From positions 1-36,400 of the forward strand of contig JAAWKM010000020.1 of the NCBI GenBank assembly GCA_022797375.1: DNA of 36,400 nucleotides. Direction: 5' to 3'. The stretch is from Lachnospiraceae bacterium (GTDB lineage Bacteria > Bacillota > Clostridia > Lachnospirales > Lachnospiraceae). The notes below the pieces were generated by a model. The model searched no databases. It was not told the origin of the DNA and saw only the letters and a program-made list of their open reading frames with translations. The position numbers and the translations under genes are program-made. Below are positions 2,153 to 27,275 of the stretch, in pieces; the first letter of the stretch is position 1, and every line of letters begins with the position of its first letter.

Positions 2153-3355
2153 TTATTTTATCTCTGTCTTTTTATACACCCTGTACAGCACAGGTACTAA
2201 TATTATAAAAAGAATCAAATACAATGGGATTATTATTGTTATAAATCCCATGACCTTTCCTCCAATTTCATATAATTTACATTCTTCAAGACTTTTATTT
2301 ACCCTTAAAAGCTGGTCTGGAAATAGTGCCATAATTTTTGCAAATATTGTAACTCTGCCTAAAAACATTGGCGCACAGGACAATATAAATGAAACTGTAA
2401 TTGCAATTACTGTTGAACGGCTTTTCGCTGATATGAGCATTGCAAAAAACAGGATAAACAAGCTTCCTATATATCCACTTGTTACTGAAAGCAGGTAATC
2501 TTCAAGGTATGTTATATTATAAATGCTGTCCCAGTTGCTAAACCCTGTCTGTACCGCACACCCTGACCCGCCAGATCCTAGTGAAAATAACACAATTGCA
2601 GAATATACCATTATTGTGCTCCAGTAAACGGATGTAACAGTTATAAAACCTGCTTCTATTTTGGAAACTATTGCTTTATTCCTGCCTTTTTCCGAAGAAA
2701 AGAAAACAGAGTCCGCTTTTAGCTGGAATTCATCTGAGAATATACCAGCTACCAGAAAGCCGGTAATTACTACTAAAATTCTCATAAATGTAAGCATATA
2801 CTGTGAATCTAATAGCGCTTTCCATCCTCCAGCATATTCATAATAAAGTGGAGTTTCCATTTTTTCATACTGTGCTATTAAAAATTCTTTCTCTGCATCT
2901 GAAAACCTTTCCTTTCCTGAATTAAGATAATTTTTTAAACGTAATATCCTCTTATTATAAACATCACCTGCTTCACTGGAACGGACACTGTTTACCCTGT
3001 AATAATCATATTCTTTATATTCTGAAAATGCCAGGCTTATAATACTGTTAATTTCCTCAATTCCTTGTTTTTTAGAATAGTTTTTACTTTGGATTTTTTC
3101 TGTTTTTTCAATTCTCCGGTTTTCCCTAAGTACCTTTTTTAATACATCTTTTGTAATATAACCTTTCCATTTATTCCTGTCCTCCTCTAAAGAGTGCGAT
3201 GCTTTAATTCCATGTATAGCATCACCATTTTCTAATATATATTGCACATCCTTTACTGTTAAAACCCCTGCTATTATTGTGATTAATATTAAAATTATAA
3301 ATAAAATCCTGTTTACTGGTTTTAAAAAAATCTTTTTAAGTTCAAATTTCATCAT
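2153..3355 (-). CDS. ABC-2 type transporter permease
   Basis: Membrane subunit of an exporter-type ABC transporter. The chosen start is ATG 3355-3353 (a second ATG follows at once). It sits behind AGGTGGAAGCA and overlaps the end of the ATPase gene by 14 bp, giving 400 aa; a longer upstream reading has no ribosome site. A first membrane helix (around ILFIILILITIIAGVLTV) is followed by about 160 charged, extracytoplasmic-type residues. Five more hydrophobic segments fill the second half, ending in a short basic tail (VYKKTEIK). This topology is typical of ABC-2 permeases with a large extracellular loop, as in lantibiotic or bacitracin exporters. The substrate cannot be told. Its partner ATPase is truncated, so the pair may be a decaying remnant. 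Confidence 0.75.
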   Translation of the reverse strand: MMKFELKKIFLKPVNRILFIILILITIIAGVLTVKDVQYILENGDAIHGIKASHSLEEDRNKWKGYITKDVLKKVLRENRRIEKTEKIQSKNYSKKQGIEEINSIISLAFSEYKEYDYYRVNSVRSSEAGDVYNKRILRLKNYLNSGKERFSDAEKEFLIAQYEKMETPLYYEYAGGWKALLDSQYMLTFMRILVVITGFLVAGIFSDEFQLKADSVFFSSEKGRNKAIVSKIEAGFITVTSVYWSTIMVYSAIVLFSLGSGGSGCAVQTGFSNWDSIYNITYLEDYLLSVTSGYIGSLFILFFAMLISAKSRSTVIAITVSFILSCAPMFLGRVTIFAKIMALFPDQLLRVNKSLEECKLYEIGGKVMGFITIIIPLYLILFIILVPVLYRVYKKTEIK

Positions 3356-3950
3356 TGCTTCCACCTGCCTTTTCCCCAAAATAATATAAAAATACATCTT
3401 CAAGTACAGCTTCTTCCTGTAATGCGTCTGGAAGTGGTTTTTCTTCTGAAATAATTCTTAACTGCACACCGCCATTTTCTGTTTTCAGGTTTGAAACCTT
3501 ATACTTTTTCATTAAAACTGGCACTTCTGCCTTTTCCACATAACATTTCCATACATTTGCTTTCATTGACTGGACAAGCCCTTCTGCTGTCCCTCTGTGT
3601 ACAATACTTCCATCTTTCATTAATAAAATTTTACTGGCAATATATTCTATATCTGAAACTATATGTGTGGATAAAAGCACAAAGCGCTCCTCTGCCAGTT
3701 CACTTATCAGGTTACGGAAACGTATACGCTCACTGGGATCAAGACCTGCTGTTGGTTCATCCAGAATTAATATTTCAGGATTATTTAATGTTGCCTGCGC
3801 AATTCCTGCACGGCGCTTCATTCCACCTGATAATTTCTTCATTTTTTTATGTGCAGCTTTCTGTAAACCCGTTTTAATAATTAATTCTTTAACCCTTTTC
3901 TTATCATCCCCATGTTTCATCTTTTGTATTAAAATAAACCCTGTATCCAC
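3342..3950 (-). pseudogene. ABC transporter ATPase lacking its N-terminal half (no Walker A)
   Basis: What remains has the ABC signature (KLSGGMKRR), Walker B (EILILDEPTAGLDP), the H-loop (LLSTHIVSDIEYIASK) and a C-terminal extension of the BcrA/exporter type. It has no Walker A and no Q-loop, so it cannot bind ATP in the usual way. The open frame starts at GTG 3950-3948 behind GGAAGGAGG. Homologous-looking sequence continues in frame for about 15 codons upstream (PKAFEKYPGRKEGF, resembling the region just after the Q-loop) until two adjacent in-frame stops near 4000. That pattern indicates a deletion of roughly the first 80-90 residues rather than a short natural protein. The ribosome-site-like GGAAGGAGG is itself part of the old coding sequence. 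The gene overlaps the permease gene downstream. Confidence 0.7.
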
Positions 3951-11793: not shown

Positions 11794-12696
11794 ATGGCTG
11801 TGAATCTAGAAAAAGACAATGCCACTGGTATGCATGATAACAAAGGCAAGGCTACGGACAAGCAGGAAACAAAACATTATAAAACAGATGAAATTACAAA
11901 TGATACAAGCCAGTTCTTTCCACTGAATGACCTTGTATATGCACCACTAAAAGCAGTTGCCCTATCTAATATGAACCTTAGCATATCACTTATTGATAAC
12001 CTTAAGAGTCTGGGGACTGTAAAACATACTGGTAATGAAGAGGTACTGTTTTTAAAAAATCTTAATATAGAATATGATAAGCTTCATCCATCTGAAAATA
12101 ATGATACATATATAGAAAAAGTTGAAATGCAAGTACCGCTTTTATCACTTATACAAATTCCCAGCCTTAATATTAAAAACGCTGAGGTGGATTTCCAGAC
12201 CGAAGTGGCTGTTTTAGAAGACAAGCAAAACAAAAAAAGTATTGTTGGCAGGATTTGTTCACCACAGACAAGAAAAACTGATGAACTTCCTAAAATAGAA
12301 TACAAAATAAAGTTAAAATCTGCCAGTGTAACTGAAGGTTATATGAGGATTACTGATGCACTGGATTCCAGCCCTGTTTCAAAAAAACTTGGGGCATCTC
12401 CATTAACCAGTAGCAGAGATATACCAGAAGCATTACAAACCAGTTTTGACCAGAAAAGAAACTTGCAAAAACAGGCAGATATCTTGCATGGGCTTTATAA
12501 TGATATTTCAGAATTTATTAAAGAAAACGAGACAGCAAATAATTCCTTCTTTACAGACAACAAGGAATTCAATAAACAGAAATACGAAAATATGAAGCAA
12601 GATATACTTACTAAAATCCTGAAAATTAAAGAAGCCCTGCTGGACAATGAGATTGCGGAATTGGAGGAAAGGGGAATTTGCATTGCAGAACAATAA
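11794..12696 (+). CDS. DUF2589 family protein (first of two)
   Basis: A 300-aa soluble protein of unknown function. A variable hydrophilic N-terminus (about 1-40) precedes the DUF2589 (PF11655) pattern: FFPLNDLVYAPLKAVALSNM, then VEMQVPLLSLIQIPSLNIKNAEVDFQTEV. The same pattern appears in the gene at 13220 (IGGPLRAAADASMQLA, and VPMLAIVPIPNLQVDEVNI). The C-terminal third is charged and helical (about 205-300), probably coiled coil. There is no signal peptide or membrane segment. The start is ATG 11794 behind AGAAAGGAAGAAAATACAT. It heads a four-gene plus-strand cluster that ends at the terminator at 14483-14536. Confidence 0.75.
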   Translation: MAVNLEKDNATGMHDNKGKATDKQETKHYKTDEITNDTSQFFPLNDLVYAPLKAVALSNMNLSISLIDNLKSLGTVKHTGNEEVLFLKNLNIEYDKLHPSENNDTYIEKVEMQVPLLSLIQIPSLNIKNAEVDFQTEVAVLEDKQNKKSIVGRICSPQTRKTDELPKIEYKIKLKSASVTEGYMRITDALDSSPVSKKLGASPLTSSRDIPEALQTSFDQKRNLQKQADILHGLYNDISEFIKENETANNSFFTDNKEFNKQKYENMKQDILTKILKIKEALLDNEIAELEERGICIAEQ

Positions 12697-13219: not shown

Positions 13220-14452
13220 ATGGCTATAGGAGATAAATTTTCAGGACTTGACATGCAGAATTTAATTGGAGGCCCGCTGCGCGCAGCAGCAGACGCAAGT
13301 ATGCAGCTTGCAGACAGCACTGCAAATTTTATAAATAAAGTTGGTTTTGACGAAAATGGAAATACCAGAAAAGCATCTTTCCAGTTTGAAAAGAAATCTT
13401 TTAATGAAGATGGCACAACAAACGAAGATGAAATGAAAATTGATGTGCCAATGCTTGCTATTGTTCCTATACCAAACCTGCAGGTTGATGAAGTCAATAT
13501 TTTATTCGATATGGAAGTAAAAGAAAGCGAAAAGAGTGAAAGTGCAACGGATTTAAGTGCAACAGCATCTGGTTCACTTAACCTTGGAATTGTGAAAGTC
13601 AATATAAGCGGAAGTGTAAGTTCCCATAGTTCTAATACAAGAAGTTCTGACAACTCTGCTAAATACCATGTTGATGTACGTGCAACAAACCATGGTACAC
13701 CTGAAGGGCTTGCAAGGGTACTTGATATGATGGCAGCATCTATATCACCATCACTTGTAAGTTCAACCCCTAAAGATGCTAATGGCCAGGAACTTCCTGC
13801 TGAAAGAAAAGAAAAGACAGAGAAAATTAAAGCACTCCGCCAGGAAATCATGCTGCTTGAAACAAAACAGTCAGCAGCAGAAAAATCCCTTACAGAACTT
13901 ATAAATAAGTTTAAACGTATAGGAAGCATGCAACAGAACCAGTACCAGGCAAAATTAAACGAATTTATTAACCAGGCAGAAAATGATGCAGATAAGGAAG
14001 TTTTCCAGAAAAATCTTGATGAAATTAACAAAATATGGAATGACTTCCAAATGCAAATTCCATCTGTAATTGAAATTATAGCATCGGAAACATCAAAAAC
14101 TTCTGAAAACGGAACTCTTTCAACCATGTTTGTATTAAAAGCTATTAGTGCTGATGGCAAAATAACTGAAGCTTATAAGGCGGAAGAGGACAACTACTAT
14201 AACCAGCTTGCTGCAGGACAAGATGCTGCTGTAAAGGCACAAACCAGCTTAAATAATCTTTCAATGCAGTGTGCTGGACAAAAAGTAAACTACAACAACC
14301 TGATTTCAGGAATTGAGCCAGATACACCAGCACCACAAAACTACACAAAAAGTGACATTACCACCAAGGAAACTTCTAATAAACTTATAGATATAATAGA
14401 TAATACAGCAGATAATATTAAAACATCCCTTTCAGAAAATACAAGTAAATAA
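13220..14452 (+). CDS. DUF2589 family protein (second of two), with coiled-coil extension
   Basis: A 410-aa soluble protein. DUF2589 fills residues 1 to about 165: LDMQNLIGGPLRAAADASMQ, VPMLAIVPIPNLQVDEVNI, then a Ser-rich stretch and KYHVDVRATNHGTPEGLARVLDMM, a typical end of this domain. Residues from about 185 to 360 are charged and helical, with long runs lacking proline (ERKEKTEKIKALRQEIMLLE), fitting coiled coil. The C-terminus is Thr/Asp/Asn-rich. Families of this type occur as pairs, and their function is not known. The start is ATG 13220 behind AAAGGAGGACTATTAT, the strongest ribosome site of the cluster, suggesting this is the most abundant product. Confidence 0.8.
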   Translation: MAIGDKFSGLDMQNLIGGPLRAAADASMQLADSTANFINKVGFDENGNTRKASFQFEKKSFNEDGTTNEDEMKIDVPMLAIVPIPNLQVDEVNILFDMEVKESEKSESATDLSATASGSLNLGIVKVNISGSVSSHSSNTRSSDNSAKYHVDVRATNHGTPEGLARVLDMMAASISPSLVSSTPKDANGQELPAERKEKTEKIKALRQEIMLLETKQSAAEKSLTELINKFKRIGSMQQNQYQAKLNEFINQAENDADKEVFQKNLDEINKIWNDFQMQIPSVIEIIASETSKTSENGTLSTMFVLKAISADGKITEAYKAEEDNYYNQLAAGQDAAVKAQTSLNNLSMQCAGQKVNYNNLISGIEPDTPAPQNYTKSDITTKETSNKLIDIIDNTADNIKTSLSENTSK

Positions 14453-19183: not shown

Positions 19184-19978
19184 TTAATCCTGTAATTCCA
19201 GCTTGTTACAAATATTATTTATAATATAAAATCCTTTTGAATTAAGGCTGTCTTCCCTGTTATAGAGCATAGGTGTGTCATCCATCTGCATAAATATAGC
19301 TCCTGCTTCTTCTGCTATACACTGCATTGCCGCTGTATCCCACTCCATTGTAGGGTTAAACCTGTAATAGACCTCTGCGTCACCCCTTGCTACAACACAG
19401 CCCTTAAGGGAACTTCCCATTTTTACAAAATTAGATATTTTATACTTTTCAACCAGTTTGTCCATCTGCTCACATCCATGTGAGCTGCTCATTACAAGAC
19501 GTATTTTATTGGTATCTGTGCAGCCTGATACTTTAATCTGCACTGCATTCCCATTCCCATTATCAAGAAATGCACCTTTGCCCTGTGAAGCATAATATAA
19601 CTCTCCAGTTACAGGCACATATATAACACCCATTACAGATTTATGCTTATAAGAAAGGGCAATATTAACAGTAAACTGCCCGTTCCTCTTTATGAATTCT
19701 TTAGTGCCGTCAAGCGGGTCAACTACAAAGCAAAAATCATTAGCAAGACGGCTCTTGTCATCCTTTTCTTCTTCAGATAAAATACTATATTGTGGAAACT
19801 CCTTTCTGAGCATATCCACAATTATTTTATTAGAAGCTTTATCAGCAGCAGTAAGCGGCATATCACCATCTTTATAAGTTACCTGCATATCCGCTGCATT
19901 ATTATAAACATCCATAATAGCATGTCCCGCTTCAATAGATGCCTTTATAGATACTTCAAGTTCTCTTTGCAAATCCAT
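19184..19978 (-). CDS. cysQ: 3'(2'),5'-bisphosphate nucleotidase CysQ
   Basis: Inositol-monophosphatase-fold enzyme that hydrolyses PAP (adenosine 3',5'-bisphosphate) to AMP, clearing the inhibitory by-product of PAPS-dependent sulfate transfer or reduction. The motifs are SEEEKDD (metal ligand Glu), FVVDPLDGTKEFIKRNGQFT, with the family DPxDGT and the KEF extension that marks CysQ over inositol phosphatases, and NPTMEWDTAAMQCIAEEAGA. The 264-aa length is usual. The start is ATG 19978 behind AAGAGGAAAGCG. It stands 195 bp after cysNC with a structured intergenic segment between them. Confidence 0.9.
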   Translation of the reverse strand: MDLQRELEVSIKASIEAGHAIMDVYNNAADMQVTYKDGDMPLTAADKASNKIIVDMLRKEFPQYSILSEEEKDDKSRLANDFCFVVDPLDGTKEFIKRNGQFTVNIALSYKHKSVMGVIYVPVTGELYYASQGKGAFLDNGNGNAVQIKVSGCTDTNKIRLVMSSSHGCEQMDKLVEKYKISNFVKMGSSLKGCVVARGDAEVYYRFNPTMEWDTAAMQCIAEEAGAIFMQMDDTPMLYNREDSLNSKGFYIINNICNKLELQD

Positions 19979-22016: not shown

Positions 22017-22916
22017 TTAGAAATACCCCTCTCTCTTTCTTCTCTCCATGCTTCCTGCTGCCTCGTTGTCAATTACCCTGCTTGTCCTTTCAGAAGACAC
22101 TGCACTTAATGTTTCCTCTATAATTGCGTCAAGTGTATCCGCATCCGACTCAATACCTCCTGTAAGAGGATAACATCCAAGTGTACGGAAACGCACTTTT
22201 TTCATTACAGGTTCTTCGCCAGGCTCTAGCTTCATCCTGTCATCATCTACCATTATTATATTGCCATCCCTGTAAACAACAGGACGTTCCTTTGCAAAAT
22301 AAAGTGATGGTATCTCAATATTTTCCCTTCTTATATATTGCCATATATCCTTTTCTGTCCAGTTAGAAAGCGGAAATACCCTGGTTTCTTCACCTTTGAA
22401 TATCTTTGTATTAAAAAGCTTCCACATCTCAGGTCTCTGGTTCTTAGGGTCCCATGCATGTGCAGAATTCCTGAATGAGAAAATCCTTTCTTTTGCCCTG
22501 GATTTCTCTTCATCACGCCTTCCGCCACCAAATGCTGCCGTAAACTGGTATTTGTCAAGTGCCTGTTTAAGCGCCTGTGTTTTCATAATATCAGTATATG
22601 CAGAACCGTGGTCAAACGGGTTAATGCCCTGGCTTCTGCCCTCTTCATTAGTATATACAAGCATTTCCAGCCCATATTTCTCTGCCATATGGTCACGGAA
22701 CTGTATCATCTCCTTAAACTTCCATGTAGTATCTACATGAAGGAATGGAAAAGGAGGTTTCTCCGGATAAAATGCTTTTAATGCAATATGAAGCATAACC
22801 GAACTGTCTTTTCCAATAGAATACAGCATAACAGGTTTTTCACACTCTGCTGCAACCTCACGCATAATATAGATTGCTTCTGCCTCCAGTTCATCTAAAT
22901 GTGATAATTGGTTCAT
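22017..22916 (-). CDS. cysD: Sulfate adenylyltransferase subunit 2 (CysD)
   Basis: Catalytic ATP-sulfurylase subunit of the PP-loop family. The motifs are [20 protein letters not shown] (PP-loop SxGKDSS), [35 protein letters not shown] and [16 protein letters not shown], with the C-terminal [16 protein letters not shown]. The start is ATG 22916 behind GGAGGAGATT (299 aa, close to the usual 302). Longer readings up to 23060 run into the preceding gene and are rejected. It is tightly coupled to cysNC and lies 52 bp downstream of the ASST-like gene. Confidence 0.95.
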
Positions 22917-22968: not shown

Positions 22969-24888
22969 TTATCCCTTTTTATCCTTTTTGCCAGTAATCC
23001 TGATTTCATTCCTGAGCTTATATGCCATTCCTTCACTTTCCACATATACAAAATATTCATCTGGCCTTAAGTTTTCAAGTGTTATGGCAAAAAACATCTT
23101 TCTTTCTGCTGGCTCTATGCCCTGGTATTCCTGGACATATTTATTATTTTCCCCAATAAAATATATCCTCTCTGCCATGCCTGGCATCATTGCAAAAAGG
23201 AACAGGCTGTCACATAATCTTGCCCTTCCAAAATATTCCCTGTCAATCCTTTCATCCGCAAGTGGTGGAAGCTGGCCTTCAAATTCTGCTGGTGGTGTTA
23301 AACTTCCTGCGATGGCATCCCTGTTTATCTCTAATGCCTGGCAGTAGTCCTCTGTACACGGCTTAAATTCCCATGTACTTAAAAATATCTTTGAAAATTC
23401 TGTCCTCTTGGTAATCTCACTATTTGAAGCATCTGCTTCAGCTATACATGCTTTATACTTTAATTTTTTATCCTTTAAAATGCCTTCTGCTACAAGCATA
23501 TATTTGCTGTCACCAGAATAAAATGCACTGCCGTACTTCCGGGATTTCTCAAGTTTTATCCTGTCCTTCAGGCTGTAAGTTCCTTCTTCTTCATTAATAT
23601 GGATTACCTTGGCAACTGAACTGTTAAAGGGCTTATGTCCTGTTTTAACCCTGCTTGCTGAACGTGTATCAAATAATATAATATCATATTCACCACTGCA
23701 AATGCCTGGTACAGTCATATAATCAGGACACATACAGATTGCGCCATTTAACCCGGCACCTTTTAAAAGGTATTTTTCTACAAATGTTCCTTTCCATGCT
23801 AAAGGAGGTGAAATTACCCATTTTAATTTTCTCTTACTCCAGTCAAGTTTTAATATACAATGCAGTTTTTTAACTGTAACATACATCATGCCCTCATGGT
23901 ATTCAATTCTTGTAATGTCTGCCCAGTTCCTTATTGTACGGTATTTATCACTTAAAACTGTAGAAATATCACACTTGTTAATAATCTTGCCACTGTCCAT
24001 ATCAAGTTCTATAATACAGTCTGAAATATGGTTTTTATCTGATGATGTAACAAGGAACAGTGAATTGCCATACTGTGCCACAGCGCGTCCTATACTATAT
24101 TCAAGCAGGAATGTCCTGTAAACCCTTCCCATATAATCCATTTCATGGTATCTGCATGGCTGCACTTTTCCAAAACTATTCATACGGTTTGCTGTCTTAT
24201 CAGCAAGCAGGAAACGCCCGTTCTGTAATGGTATCATGCCAAGCCTGCCTGTCCTGCACTGCAGTGAATAACGGATTTTGCCTTCGCCGTCAATTACTAT
24301 TGGATTGAAATTTATTCCATTTAACAGAATAAATGGAAAATGTGACATTTGTTTGTCTGTTCTGCATACAATGCTTTTTAACCTGTCTGCCACAGGTGGC
24401 ACATATATATTTATTATCCTGTGCTTTATAACATGGTTTTCTTCGTCTATAAGTTTTAAATCCACCTTATTATTCCTGCCCTGGTAAAGCCCCATAATTG
24501 CTACCCTGTGCCTTGTGCCTGGTACAGAATCTCCCTCAAAATTATATTCAGGAGTATCACCTTCCACACAGTAATGTACCTGGCATGTTTTAGAAGAGTT
24601 AAATAGTATAAGTGCAGTCTGCTTTGCTGCCCCATATGGGTCTGGTATTACAAGCAGGTATTTAAAAGTGTATAAATGCCTGTCCAGAATACGCTCGAAG
24701 GCATAGTCCCTTACCTGCGAATGGAAACTTCTCTGCATTTCTTTACGCATAGGTGATATGATTTTCTTATTTTTCTTTGCCAGGACTTCACTTTCATACA
24801 TCCTGTCAAGCTTATTCAAATCACTTTCACTGTAAGTAACTTTAGAACCATTTTTAACTTCAATAAAATAATTGTCAAAAAATCCCAT
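22969..24888 (-). CDS. Arylsulfotransferase (ASST)-like protein, apparently lacking catalytic residues
   Basis: A 639-aa protein with no signal peptide. Residues about 70-165 match the ASST N-terminal domain ([37 protein letters not shown]). A six-bladed propeller-type region follows to about 600 ([67 protein letters not shown]). Active ASST uses a transient sulfo-histidine in a QH motif plus two further His and an Arg. By eye those sites here read LN (380-381), GRA near 267-269, NWADIT (321-326) and VKK (339-341), so all four look substituted. It lies directly upstream of cysD in the same direction. It may be a pseudo-enzyme, a sulfate-ester sensor, or an enzyme of different chemistry. The start is ATG 24888 after GGGGATTGCCAT. 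Confidence 0.75.
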
Positions 24889-24950: not shown

Positions 24951-27275
24951 TTATAACTTCATTGTAAGCTGTATTCTCTGCTTCTTTATATCTACACTTA
25001 ATACTTTTACATCTACAATATCACCAACGCTTACTATATCAAGAGGATGTTTAACAAACTTGTTATTAGAAAGCTGTGATATATGTACAAGACCATCCTG
25101 GTGCACACCTATATCTACAAATGCGCCAAAATCAATTACATTGCGCACTGTCCCTTTTAATACCATACCCTCTTTTAAATCTTTCATTTCAAGCACATCT
25201 GTACGCAATATTGGAAGTGGCATTTCATCACGGGGGTCTCTTGCTGGTTTTTCTAATTCTTTAAGTATATCACAAAGTGTTATCTCTCCAATGCCAAGTT
25301 CTGCCGCCACTGCCTTTTTATCTTTTATCCTGCCTTCAAGCCCTCTGCTGCTTTTCTGTTTACTTCCCTTCTCTGTGCTGGCAACAGAAATACCATTTCC
25401 AAATGCCTTGGCAAAAGCAGCACCAAATGCAGTATTTGTATTTTTAACTGTAAATTCCTTTTTCCTTTCCTTGTTTTCCTGTCTTTTACCTTCTGCCTGT
25501 GCTGTCTTTCCTTCCTTTGCGGCATCTGCCTGTATTTTTTTCAAATCATCTGGTGTTATGCCAAGTTTGTCAAGAAGCTTTTCTGCTGCCTCATATGATT
25601 CAGGGTGCACGCTTGTTGCATCAAGCGGGTTGTCACCATCCTGTATACGCATAAAACCTGCACACTGTTCAAATGCTTTAGGCCCAAGTTTAGCAACCTT
25701 TAAAAGCTGCTTCCTGTTAGTAAATTTCCCATTTTCTTCCCTGTATATTACTATATTTTTAGCAACCGCCTTGGAAATTCCTGATATATATTCAAGCAAT
25801 GGTGCTGATGCAGTATTTAAATCTACACCTACTTTATTTACACAGTCTTCAACAACACCAGCCAGCGCTTCTGCAAGCTTTTTCTGGTTCATATCATGCT
25901 GGTACTGGCCTACTCCTATTGACTTTGGGTCAATCTTAACAAGTTCTGCAAGCGGGTCCTGCAGCCTTCTTGCTATTGATGCTGCGCTTCTCTGCCCTAC
26001 GTCAAACTCTGGAAATTCTTCTGTTGCAAGCTTACTGGCAGAATATACGGAAGCGCCTGCTTCATTAACTATTACATATTGCACAGGTTCTTTTATTTCC
26101 TTTAAAATATCTGCAATAATCTGCTCAGACTCACGTGATGCTGTGCCATTGCCAACAGAAACCAGAGATATGCCATATTTGCTGACTAATGCTTTAACAA
26201 TCTTCTTCGTTTCTTCAACCTTATTCTGTGGTGCTGTAGGATATACAACCGTAGTATCAAGTACTTTGCCTGTACTGTCAACTACTGCAAGTTTGCACCC
26301 TGTACGGAAAGCCGGGTCCCAGCCAAGCACGTTCCTGCCTGCAACTGGCGGCTGCATAAGAAGCTGCCCTAAATTCTTTCCAAATACCTTAATTGCACCG
26401 TCTTCTGCCTTTTCTGTTAATTCATTACGTATTTCACGCTCTATTGCAGGTGCAATTAACCTCCTGTAACTGTCCTCTATAGTGTCCCTTAAAACTGCTG
26501 CCAGTGTTTCATTAGAAGAAGTTATTATCTTCTTGTTAAGATAGCCAAGTATACGCTCTTCTGGTGCTTCAAGCTTTACCACAAGAAATTTCTCCTTCTC
26601 ACCACGGTTTAAAGCAAGTACCCTGTGCCCCGCAATTTTAGCAGCTTCTTCACTAAAATCATAGTACATTTCATAAACAGACTGCACCTCATTGTCTTTG
26701 GCAGCTGACACAATTCTTCCTTCTTCAAATGAAACCTTCCTTATATACATCCTGTATTCTGCATTATCAGAAATAATTTCCGCAATTATATCTTTTGCAC
26801 CTGCTATTGCATCTTCAGCACTGTTTACTTCCTTTTCCTCTGAAATATAACCAGCAGCAAGGTCTTCTATACCCTCTGCTGTTTCCTGCGCCATAAATAT
26901 ATCTGCAAGCCCTTCAAGCCCTTTTTCCCTGGCGATAGTTGCCCTTGTCCTTCTCTTTGGGCGGTATGGACGGTAAAGGTCCTCCACAACAACCTGTGTC
27001 TGTGCCTCCAGAATCTGCTTTTTAAGTTCCTCTGTAAGCTTTCCCTGTTCCTCAATGCTGGCAAGTACCTGTTCTTTCTTTTCCTCAAGGTTCCTAAGGT
27101 ATACCAGGCGTTCATTTATATTACGTATCTGCTCATCATCCAGAGAGCCATGCGCCTCTTTCCTGTATCTTGCTATAAATGGAATAGTATTCCCCTCATC
27201 TATAAGATTTATTACTGCCTCAGCCTGTCCTGTCCTGATAGAAAGTTCACTGGCAATCTGTTTTGCAATATCCAT
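24951..27275 (-). CDS. tex: Tex family RNA-binding transcription accessory protein
   Basis: Cytoplasmic nucleic-acid-binding protein of the Tex/YhgF family, related to eukaryotic Spt6. The Tex N-terminal helical domain (about 1-190) contains VINLIDEGNTIPFIARYRKE. A YqgF/RNase H-like domain lies around 320-450 (GWDPAFRTGCKLAVVD). Helix-hairpin-helix repeats follow (QYQHDMNQKKLAEALAGVVE, LNTASAPLLEYISGIS). The C-terminal S1 domain is at about 700-774 (LKGTVRNVIDFGAFVDIGVH). At 774 aa it is longer than most Tex proteins because of a Lys/Gln/Glu-rich, Ala/Gly-containing insertion at about 580-650, between the HhH region and IGEITLCDILKELEKPARDP. The start is ATG 27275 behind TTTGGAGGATTTTT. The mRNA leader probably contains the long inverted repeat at 27322-27520. 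Confidence 0.93.
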   Translation of the reverse strand: MDIAKQIASELSIRTGQAEAVINLIDEGNTIPFIARYRKEAHGSLDDEQIRNINERLVYLRNLEEKKEQVLASIEEQGKLTEELKKQILEAQTQVVVEDLYRPYRPKRRTRATIAREKGLEGLADIFMAQETAEGIEDLAAGYISEEKEVNSAEDAIAGAKDIIAEIISDNAEYRMYIRKVSFEEGRIVSAAKDNEVQSVYEMYYDFSEEAAKIAGHRVLALNRGEKEKFLVVKLEAPEERILGYLNKKIITSSNETLAAVLRDTIEDSYRRLIAPAIEREIRNELTEKAEDGAIKVFGKNLGQLLMQPPVAGRNVLGWDPAFRTGCKLAVVDSTGKVLDTTVVYPTAPQNKVEETKKIVKALVSKYGISLVSVGNGTASRESEQIIADILKEIKEPVQYVIVNEAGASVYSASKLATEEFPEFDVGQRSAASIARRLQDPLAELVKIDPKSIGVGQYQHDMNQKKLAEALAGVVEDCVNKVGVDLNTASAPLLEYISGISKAVAKNIVIYREENGKFTNRKQLLKVAKLGPKAFEQCAGFMRIQDGDNPLDATSVHPESYEAAEKLLDKLGITPDDLKKIQADAAKEGKTAQAEGKRQENKERKKEFTVKNTNTAFGAAFAKAFGNGISVASTEKGSKQKSSRGLEGRIKDKKAVAAELGIGEITLCDILKELEKPARDPRDEMPLPILRTDVLEMKDLKEGMVLKGTVRNVIDFGAFVDIGVHQDGLVHISQLSNNKFVKHPLDIVSVGDIVDVKVLSVDIKKQRIQLTMKL

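Follow-up and report, generated by a model that had tools for sequence, protein, structure and literature searches.

An arylsulfotransferase-fold protein of Lachnospiraceae without catalytic histidines is probably retained by selection for binding or scaffolding

What keeps a protein with the fold of an arylsulfate sulfotransferase (ASST) in a genome once the residues that handle the sulfuryl group have been replaced? The question is raised by P0001, encoded next to sulfate-activation genes in a 36,400-nucleotide stretch of a Lachnospiraceae bacterium (assembly GCA_022797375.1, contig JAAWKM010000020.1, positions 1 to 36,400; hereafter the window). A first-pass annotation had proposed that all four catalytic positions of this protein are replaced and that it probably has another selected job. 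Following comparison with relatives from the genus, family and order, we give a probability of roughly 0.6 to the reading that P0001 is a pseudoenzyme which selection maintains as a binding or scaffold protein.

22969..24888, minus strand: P0001, ASST-fold protein of 639 aa with replaced catalytic residues, in a single open frame

The ASST motifs that had been noted in the sequence were confirmed by profile searches. P0001 matched the Pfam families PF05935 over residues 181-498 (E 5.4e-21) and PF17425 (Ig-like) over residues 80-158 (E 2.1e-7), both over the cut-off; these were the only Pfam matches up to E 0.1, a P-loop sulfotransferase domain not being found, and no NCBIfam family was hit at E 0.01. 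When hhalign was used to align a profile built from 17 relatives with one built from 14 ordinary Lachnospiraceae ASSTs, the match covered 611 columns with a probability of 100 (E 6e-90). P0001 is homologous to PF05935 and PF17425, and its predicted fold is an Ig-like domain plus a propeller. No leader or signal peptide is visible by eye at its N-terminus, and the protein is presumably cytosolic. Periplasmic secretion and a Dsb partner characterise the proteobacterial members of the family.

The numbering of E. coli AssT was transferred through an alignment of the 14-ASST profile to 3elq, which places the active-site positions as follows.

24085..24087, minus strand: R268, aligned with His252 of E. 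coli AssT (hhalign, MAFFT)
23917..23919, minus strand: D324, at the position of His356 (hhalign, MAFFT)
23911..23913, minus strand: T326, at the position of Asn358 (alignment to 3elq, MAFFT)
23869..23871, minus strand: K340, at the position of Arg374 (hhalign, MAFFT)
23722..23727, minus strand: P388-D389, in place of the catalytic His436, the register being uncertain by one residue (hhalign, MAFFT)

Active-site residues are conserved across the published arylsulfotransferases, where His436 is the sulfated residue and Asn358 is named as a further active-site residue (PMC13426309). In P0001 the HH motif reads G267-R268, DWAH reads N321-W-A-D324 and Arg374 is K340, as had been claimed. The change at Arg374 keeps the charge, and Asn358 is additionally replaced by T326. 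The QH motif had been assigned to L380-N381, a register ruled out by the alignments: the His436 column falls at P388 in hhalign and in MAFFT alignments of 40 and of 12 rows, and at D389 in a 56-row MAFFT alignment, seven or eight residues away. A tyrosine, EcAST Tyr96, was formerly proposed as the sulfated residue; here the alignment stops at R157/Asp95, and the next position by eye is I158.

Residues were counted in the 56-row alignment over 23 undeleted rows of the clade that P0001 forms with its substituted relatives, and over 28 ordinary Lachnospiraceae ASST rows, these being all ASST-profile matches outside the clade minus the following exclusions. Left out of both the counts and the tree were L043 and L059 (halves of the copy in genome G021), L062 (two rows, distant), L069 and L070 (of an anchored type), the side frame of G009, whose main frame alone was used, and the fragment L118_741; L039 and L054 are truncated at contig ends. 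The His252, His356 and His436 columns hold His in 28/28 ordinary rows and the Asn358 and Arg374 columns are likewise intact in all 28, a count that does not extend to every ASST homologue because the excluded L069 and L070 also lack the catalytic His. Since the three columns are invariably His in the ordinary rows, the loss in the clade is not chance. The Arg374 position is K or R, its charge thus being kept, and the Asn358 position S or T, each in 23/23 undeleted clade rows.

A register-free check recorded any His within six residues of each catalytic column. Around His436 one was present in 0/23 clade rows versus 28/28 ordinary rows, and relatives carrying QH at that place, which the first-pass annotation had held would speak against its view, likewise numbered 0/23. 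Around His252, five of the 23 clade rows had a His, always in a nearby QH and never at the column; around His356 there were again five, with L051 and L054 carrying His at the column itself. As originally suggested, the normal sulfo-histidine route should be lost, with no His at or near the His436 column of any undeleted clade row. Judged by these alignments, P0001 belongs to the ASST homology family, but we do not class it as an ASST enzyme, because each of the defining residues (His436; His252 and His356; Arg374 and Asn358) was tested and found to be absent.

The substituted form occurs in 26 of the 28 genomes examined from the window's Lachnospiraceae genus, and Butyribacter intestini and Eubacterium sp. 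MSJ-13 are among the named records that carry the gene. G017 and G024 (79 and 65% complete) lacked it, and only the anchored, distant type was found there. A search of 397 genomes of the family gave matches in 13 outside the genus, with at least one locus read per matching genome (the G080:C47 and G298:C9 matches were not read), and revealed further substituted relatives in G336 and G298. From a search of the order (392 genomes), five further ASST loci were read (two G733 matches were not): four have intact HH, DWAH, RN and QxH, and the fifth, L157, is short, its His436 place being unreadable. In a tree of 53 rows, built additionally without the long fused frames L123 and L128, all 27 substituted rows fell on one branch (Shimodaira-Hasegawa-like approximate likelihood ratio support 100, stem 1.07), whose closest neighbours were the window genus's own intact ASSTs together with one of G298 (fork support 86). 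This topology shows a single origin of the substituted form.

The anchored type is a second ASST-like protein of the genus, about 580-640 aa long (L141-L151, L153, L069 and L070, 14 of 15 loci; L152 gave no match), with an N-terminal hydrophobic stretch that by eye is likely a membrane anchor. It too is without the catalytic His, reading for example ISG for HH, NWIDLN for DWAH and QYGQ, QAGQ or QFGQ for QQH, and in G009 and G026 it adjoins a PF00685 sulfotransferase.

Within the clade the gene is under constraint, and the constraint has moved. In 24 of the 26 copies the frame has no stop or break in the part seen, some being cut by contig ends. The ratio of nonsynonymous to synonymous substitution rates (dN/dS) over the whole gene was 0.130, 0.098, 0.115, 0.088, 0.050 and 0.133 in the six of ten clade pairs with unsaturated dS, ratios that are rough because dS is high throughout. 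The N-terminal part stands out in these comparisons:

24649..24888, minus strand: N-terminal helical extension, codons 1-80, among the best-conserved regions in the clade

In this extension 31 of the 80 columns reach 95% class conservation in the clade. Mean column identity in the clade versus the intact ASSTs was 0.70 versus 0.35 for the extension, 0.74 versus 0.52 for the Ig-like domain and 0.59 versus 0.39 for the C-terminal beta part, whereas the catalytic blades (301-440) gave 0.47 versus 0.57; the lower identity of the intact set elsewhere is partly a matter of depth, since that set spans more genera. The catalytic blades were looser than the extension in four of the five clade pairs measurable for both (one over 25 codons), and tighter in 3/3 pairs of intact ASSTs. 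Together, these substitution and conservation patterns show purifying selection with moved constraint, and a single conserved clade with mostly intact frames and dN/dS of 0.05-0.13 in the measurable pairs bears out the earlier suggestion of another selected job.

A further relevant observation came from four relatives, forming one subclade, which have lost most of the active-site region and kept the gene; all four adjoin cysD-cysNC.

23545..23937, minus strand: codons 318-448, a stretch of which 120-123 residues are missing in the relatives of G003, G007, G023 and G025

These shortened proteins, represented by a 524-aa form, argue against any pocket-based function shared by the whole clade.

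P0001 thus combines a homologous fold, catalytic residues lost throughout a conserved clade, and purifying selection, the features of a pseudoenzyme, and the strongest support for a kept binding or scaffold protein comes from three points: the substituted rows form a single clade, their constraint has shifted, and a shortened form exists. The loss of sulfotransfer and binding as the job are both conclusions that we infer. According to this model, P0001 would have descended from Lachnospiraceae ASSTs, some of them linked to genes for synthesis of 3'-phosphoadenosine 5'-phosphosulfate (PAPS), and would have retained the Ig-like domain and propeller while losing the histidines that take up and stabilise the sulfuryl group. 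Its working surface would most likely comprise the C-terminal beta domain and, at the other end, the N-terminal helical extension together with the Ig-like domain and the first blade, and these surfaces would bind a partner protein, for which Tex and CysDN are guesses.

Several observations weigh on the other side. The strongest is that the pocket is itself constrained where present, with S/T at 326 and K/R at 340 in 23/23 rows, P388 in 22/23 and D/E at 389 in 20/23; these positions may make up an active site or ligand site that has been remodelled, and they leave room for a rebuilt pocket. In the pair L047/L048 the pattern is reversed, the catalytic blades being tighter than the extension (dN/dS 0.037 versus 0.054). 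Moreover, dS is high or saturated in all pairs, and two of the 26 copies, in G009 and G021, look broken. The G009 copy (G009:C307, L053) consists of two overlapping frames and that of G021 (C61 and C94; L043, L059) of gene pieces with stops on two contigs; either may reflect assembly error.

The neighbouring genes are as follows.

24951..27275, minus strand: tex, the constant neighbour of the clade, its stop (24951) 62 bp upstream of the P0001 ATG (24888)
22017..22916, minus strand: cysD, sulfate adenylyltransferase small subunit, likely ATG at 22916 behind GGAGGAG (start by eye), 52 bp downstream of P0001
20174..22072, minus strand: cysNC, sulfate adenylyltransferase large subunit fused to adenylylsulfate (APS) kinase
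19184..19978, minus strand: cysQ, 3'(2'),5'-bisphosphate nucleotidase

The order downstream of P0001 is cysD, cysNC, cysQ, trkH, and a consensus scan of the minus strand from tex to trkH found one terminator-like site only, a 5-pair hairpin inside tex. Because the genes share a strand, the gaps are 62 and 52 bp and this sole hairpin lies within tex, P0001 probably shares a transcript with tex and, in many genomes, also with cysD-cysNC. The first-pass annotation had proposed checking for a conserved clade next to cysDNC; the clade is there, but the tight neighbour is tex, which lies directly upstream in 24/24 genus genomes whose contig continues and also in G336 and G298. Many of these genomes also share a syntenic set of aspK, apgM, homoserine dehydrogenase and prfB ahead of tex, so the tex linkage within them partly reflects shared ancestry; in G298 tex is present, yet these four genes were not found in the 20 kb read. 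Directly after the gene, cysD-cysNC follows in 13/26 genomes, a fourteenth (G022) having the gene tail beside cysD on another contig, while APS kinase alone follows in 2/26 and neither in 10/26. The copy of G013 adjoins an APS kinase gene. Over 27 tree rows this adjacency requires five changes, with L039 counted as cysD-adjacent on the strength of its other contig, and L040 and L041 (APS kinase only) counted as non-adjacent. It is probably ancestral, since it is also present in G336, and was repeatedly lost while the gene stayed. If PF01507 matches with E below 1e-50 are counted as cysD, 21 of the 26 gene-carrying genomes have such a strong match, with partial matches in G009 and G015; none was found in the gene-keeping G004, G010 and G019 (90, 90 and 76% complete), nor in G017 and G024, which also lack the gene. 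A strict dependence on cysDNC is weakened by the 14/26 adjacency, the five tree changes and these three gene-keeping genomes.

Elsewhere in the window, two neighbouring DUF2589 proteins are encoded on the plus strand (11794-12696 and 13220-14452) and, on the minus strand (2153-3403), a 416-aa frame for which Pfam gave no match at E 0.001. Rfam gave no match in the window at gathering scores.

The old pocket might instead act as a receptor for a sulfated small molecule, PAPS or 3'-phosphoadenosine 5'-phosphate (PAP), perhaps regulating sulfate activation. Consistent with this are the conserved basic residues 340 and 341 (K/R in 23/23 and 22/23 rows, respectively), S/T326, and the co-occurrence with cysD described above, including the two genomes that lack both. 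We nevertheless consider it unlikely: the pocket stretch is lost in the four shortened relatives, three genomes keep the gene without a strong PF01507 match, and the two gene-less genomes are incomplete.

Alternatively, P0001 could be a sulfotransferase with changed chemistry, its site rebuilt on D/E389, K/R340, K/R341 and S/T326 and using PAPS from CysDNC in one step, with no sulfo-histidine. These residues are class-conserved in 20-23 of the 23 undeleted rows, cysD-cysNC is adjacent in 14/26 genus genomes and in G336, and G001 (98% complete) carries cysD, cysNC and cysQ without a named PAPS user: no PF00685, PF13469 or AprA match was found there, other sulfotransferase families not being usefully searched (PF03567 matched nowhere, controls included, and was uninformative). 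However, ordinary ASSTs in G001 could be the PAPS user, and the window genome (G000) has one Sulfotransfer_1/3 (PF00685/PF13469) protein (L163:1969-2787, G000:C158) in a sugar cluster between a DegT aminotransferase and a WbqC-like protein, flanking genes that make a sulfated glycan likely; this protein is likely the PAPS user at hand. Together with the catalytic blades being among the least conserved parts, and most of the stretch missing from four relatives beside cysD-cysNC, this makes changed chemistry rather unlikely.

Both G000 and G001 have a second PF01507 protein, which is a DUF3440 protein. Six genus genomes, neither G000 nor G001 among them, gave AprA-like matches with E below 1e-90, none of which reached the family's cut-off, and G008 has a weak, broken AprA-like fragment. 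An AprA-like gene stands beside a whole or partial cysD match in G012, G013, G015, G016, G020 and G023; in G016, G020 and G023 this cysD is additional to the tex-linked one, a separate assimilation locus.

Intact ASSTs lie near cysD and cysNC relatives in five of the 13 matching genomes outside the genus (G133, G159, G298, G320 and G380, at most 20 kb read), those of G159 being distant (29-48% identity). Across several Lachnospiraceae genera the ordinary ASSTs so placed are L118, L127, L129, L130 and L156 (G720), with L117 a few kb off. This proximity suggests that a family described as independent of PAPS has a PAPS-linked role, and because it recurs in several genomes the clade ancestor plausibly derived from a PAPS-linked ASST. 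A history in which the propeller became a cytosolic PAPS-dependent enzyme or PAPS receptor (D/E389, K/R340-341, S/T326) working with CysDNC of the same operon, one subclade later shedding some of the propeller and retaining only the portion that binds a partner, seems doubtful to us.

That P0001 is a decaying relict without function is very improbable. Its catalytic residues vary, two copies look broken and one subclade has lost 120 residues; a pseudogene was rejected on the dN/dS values and the 24/26 unbroken frames, and the conserved extension columns also argue against it. Since E. coli AssT is a homodimer (PMC13426309), mixed dimers with a catalytically intact paralogue can be imagined, and the window genome does have two paralogues with intact HH, DWAH, RN and QQH, but ordinary ASSTs (PF05935 over 130 bits; motifs read in six genomes) occur in only 9/28 genus genomes versus 26 for the substituted form, and a dedicated partner role was rejected on this distribution as the least credible account.

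P0001 and its relatives form a natural series that runs from the intact enzyme through the substituted form to the shortened one, which lacks most of the catalytic blades, and the clade allows a test of what a propeller enzyme does after its chemistry is lost. Annotation based on Pfam will label these proteins sulfotransferases, a name that would mislead estimates of gut sulfation capacity. No catalytically dead ASST, and no ASST beside cysNC in gut bacteria, was found in the titles and abstract starts listed by searches of open-licence PubMed Central.

Compared with E. coli AssT (3elq), with which it shares PF05935 and PF17425, P0001 lacks His252, His356 and His436, has Lys for Arg374 and Thr for Asn358, and adds an N-terminal extension of about 80 aa, no signal peptide by eye, and tex and cysDNC as neighbours. 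The ordinary Lachnospiraceae ASSTs (e.g. L060 and L061 of the window genome) are its nearest relatives in the tree; genus members share the N-terminal extension and several lie near cysD-cysNC, but their five active-site columns are intact (28/28) and their catalytic blades are tighter than the extension (3/3 pairs). Cpz4, the caprazamycin sulfotransferase (9kf4, 9kf6), has 14% identity and is, per entry title, an enzyme with a reaction intermediate. The closest parallel to the His loss is AssT H436N (4p04, 4p05; from titles), a propeller without the catalytic His that still holds a ligand in its site; there a single change was engineered, whereas in the natural clade of P0001 all of the positions are replaced.
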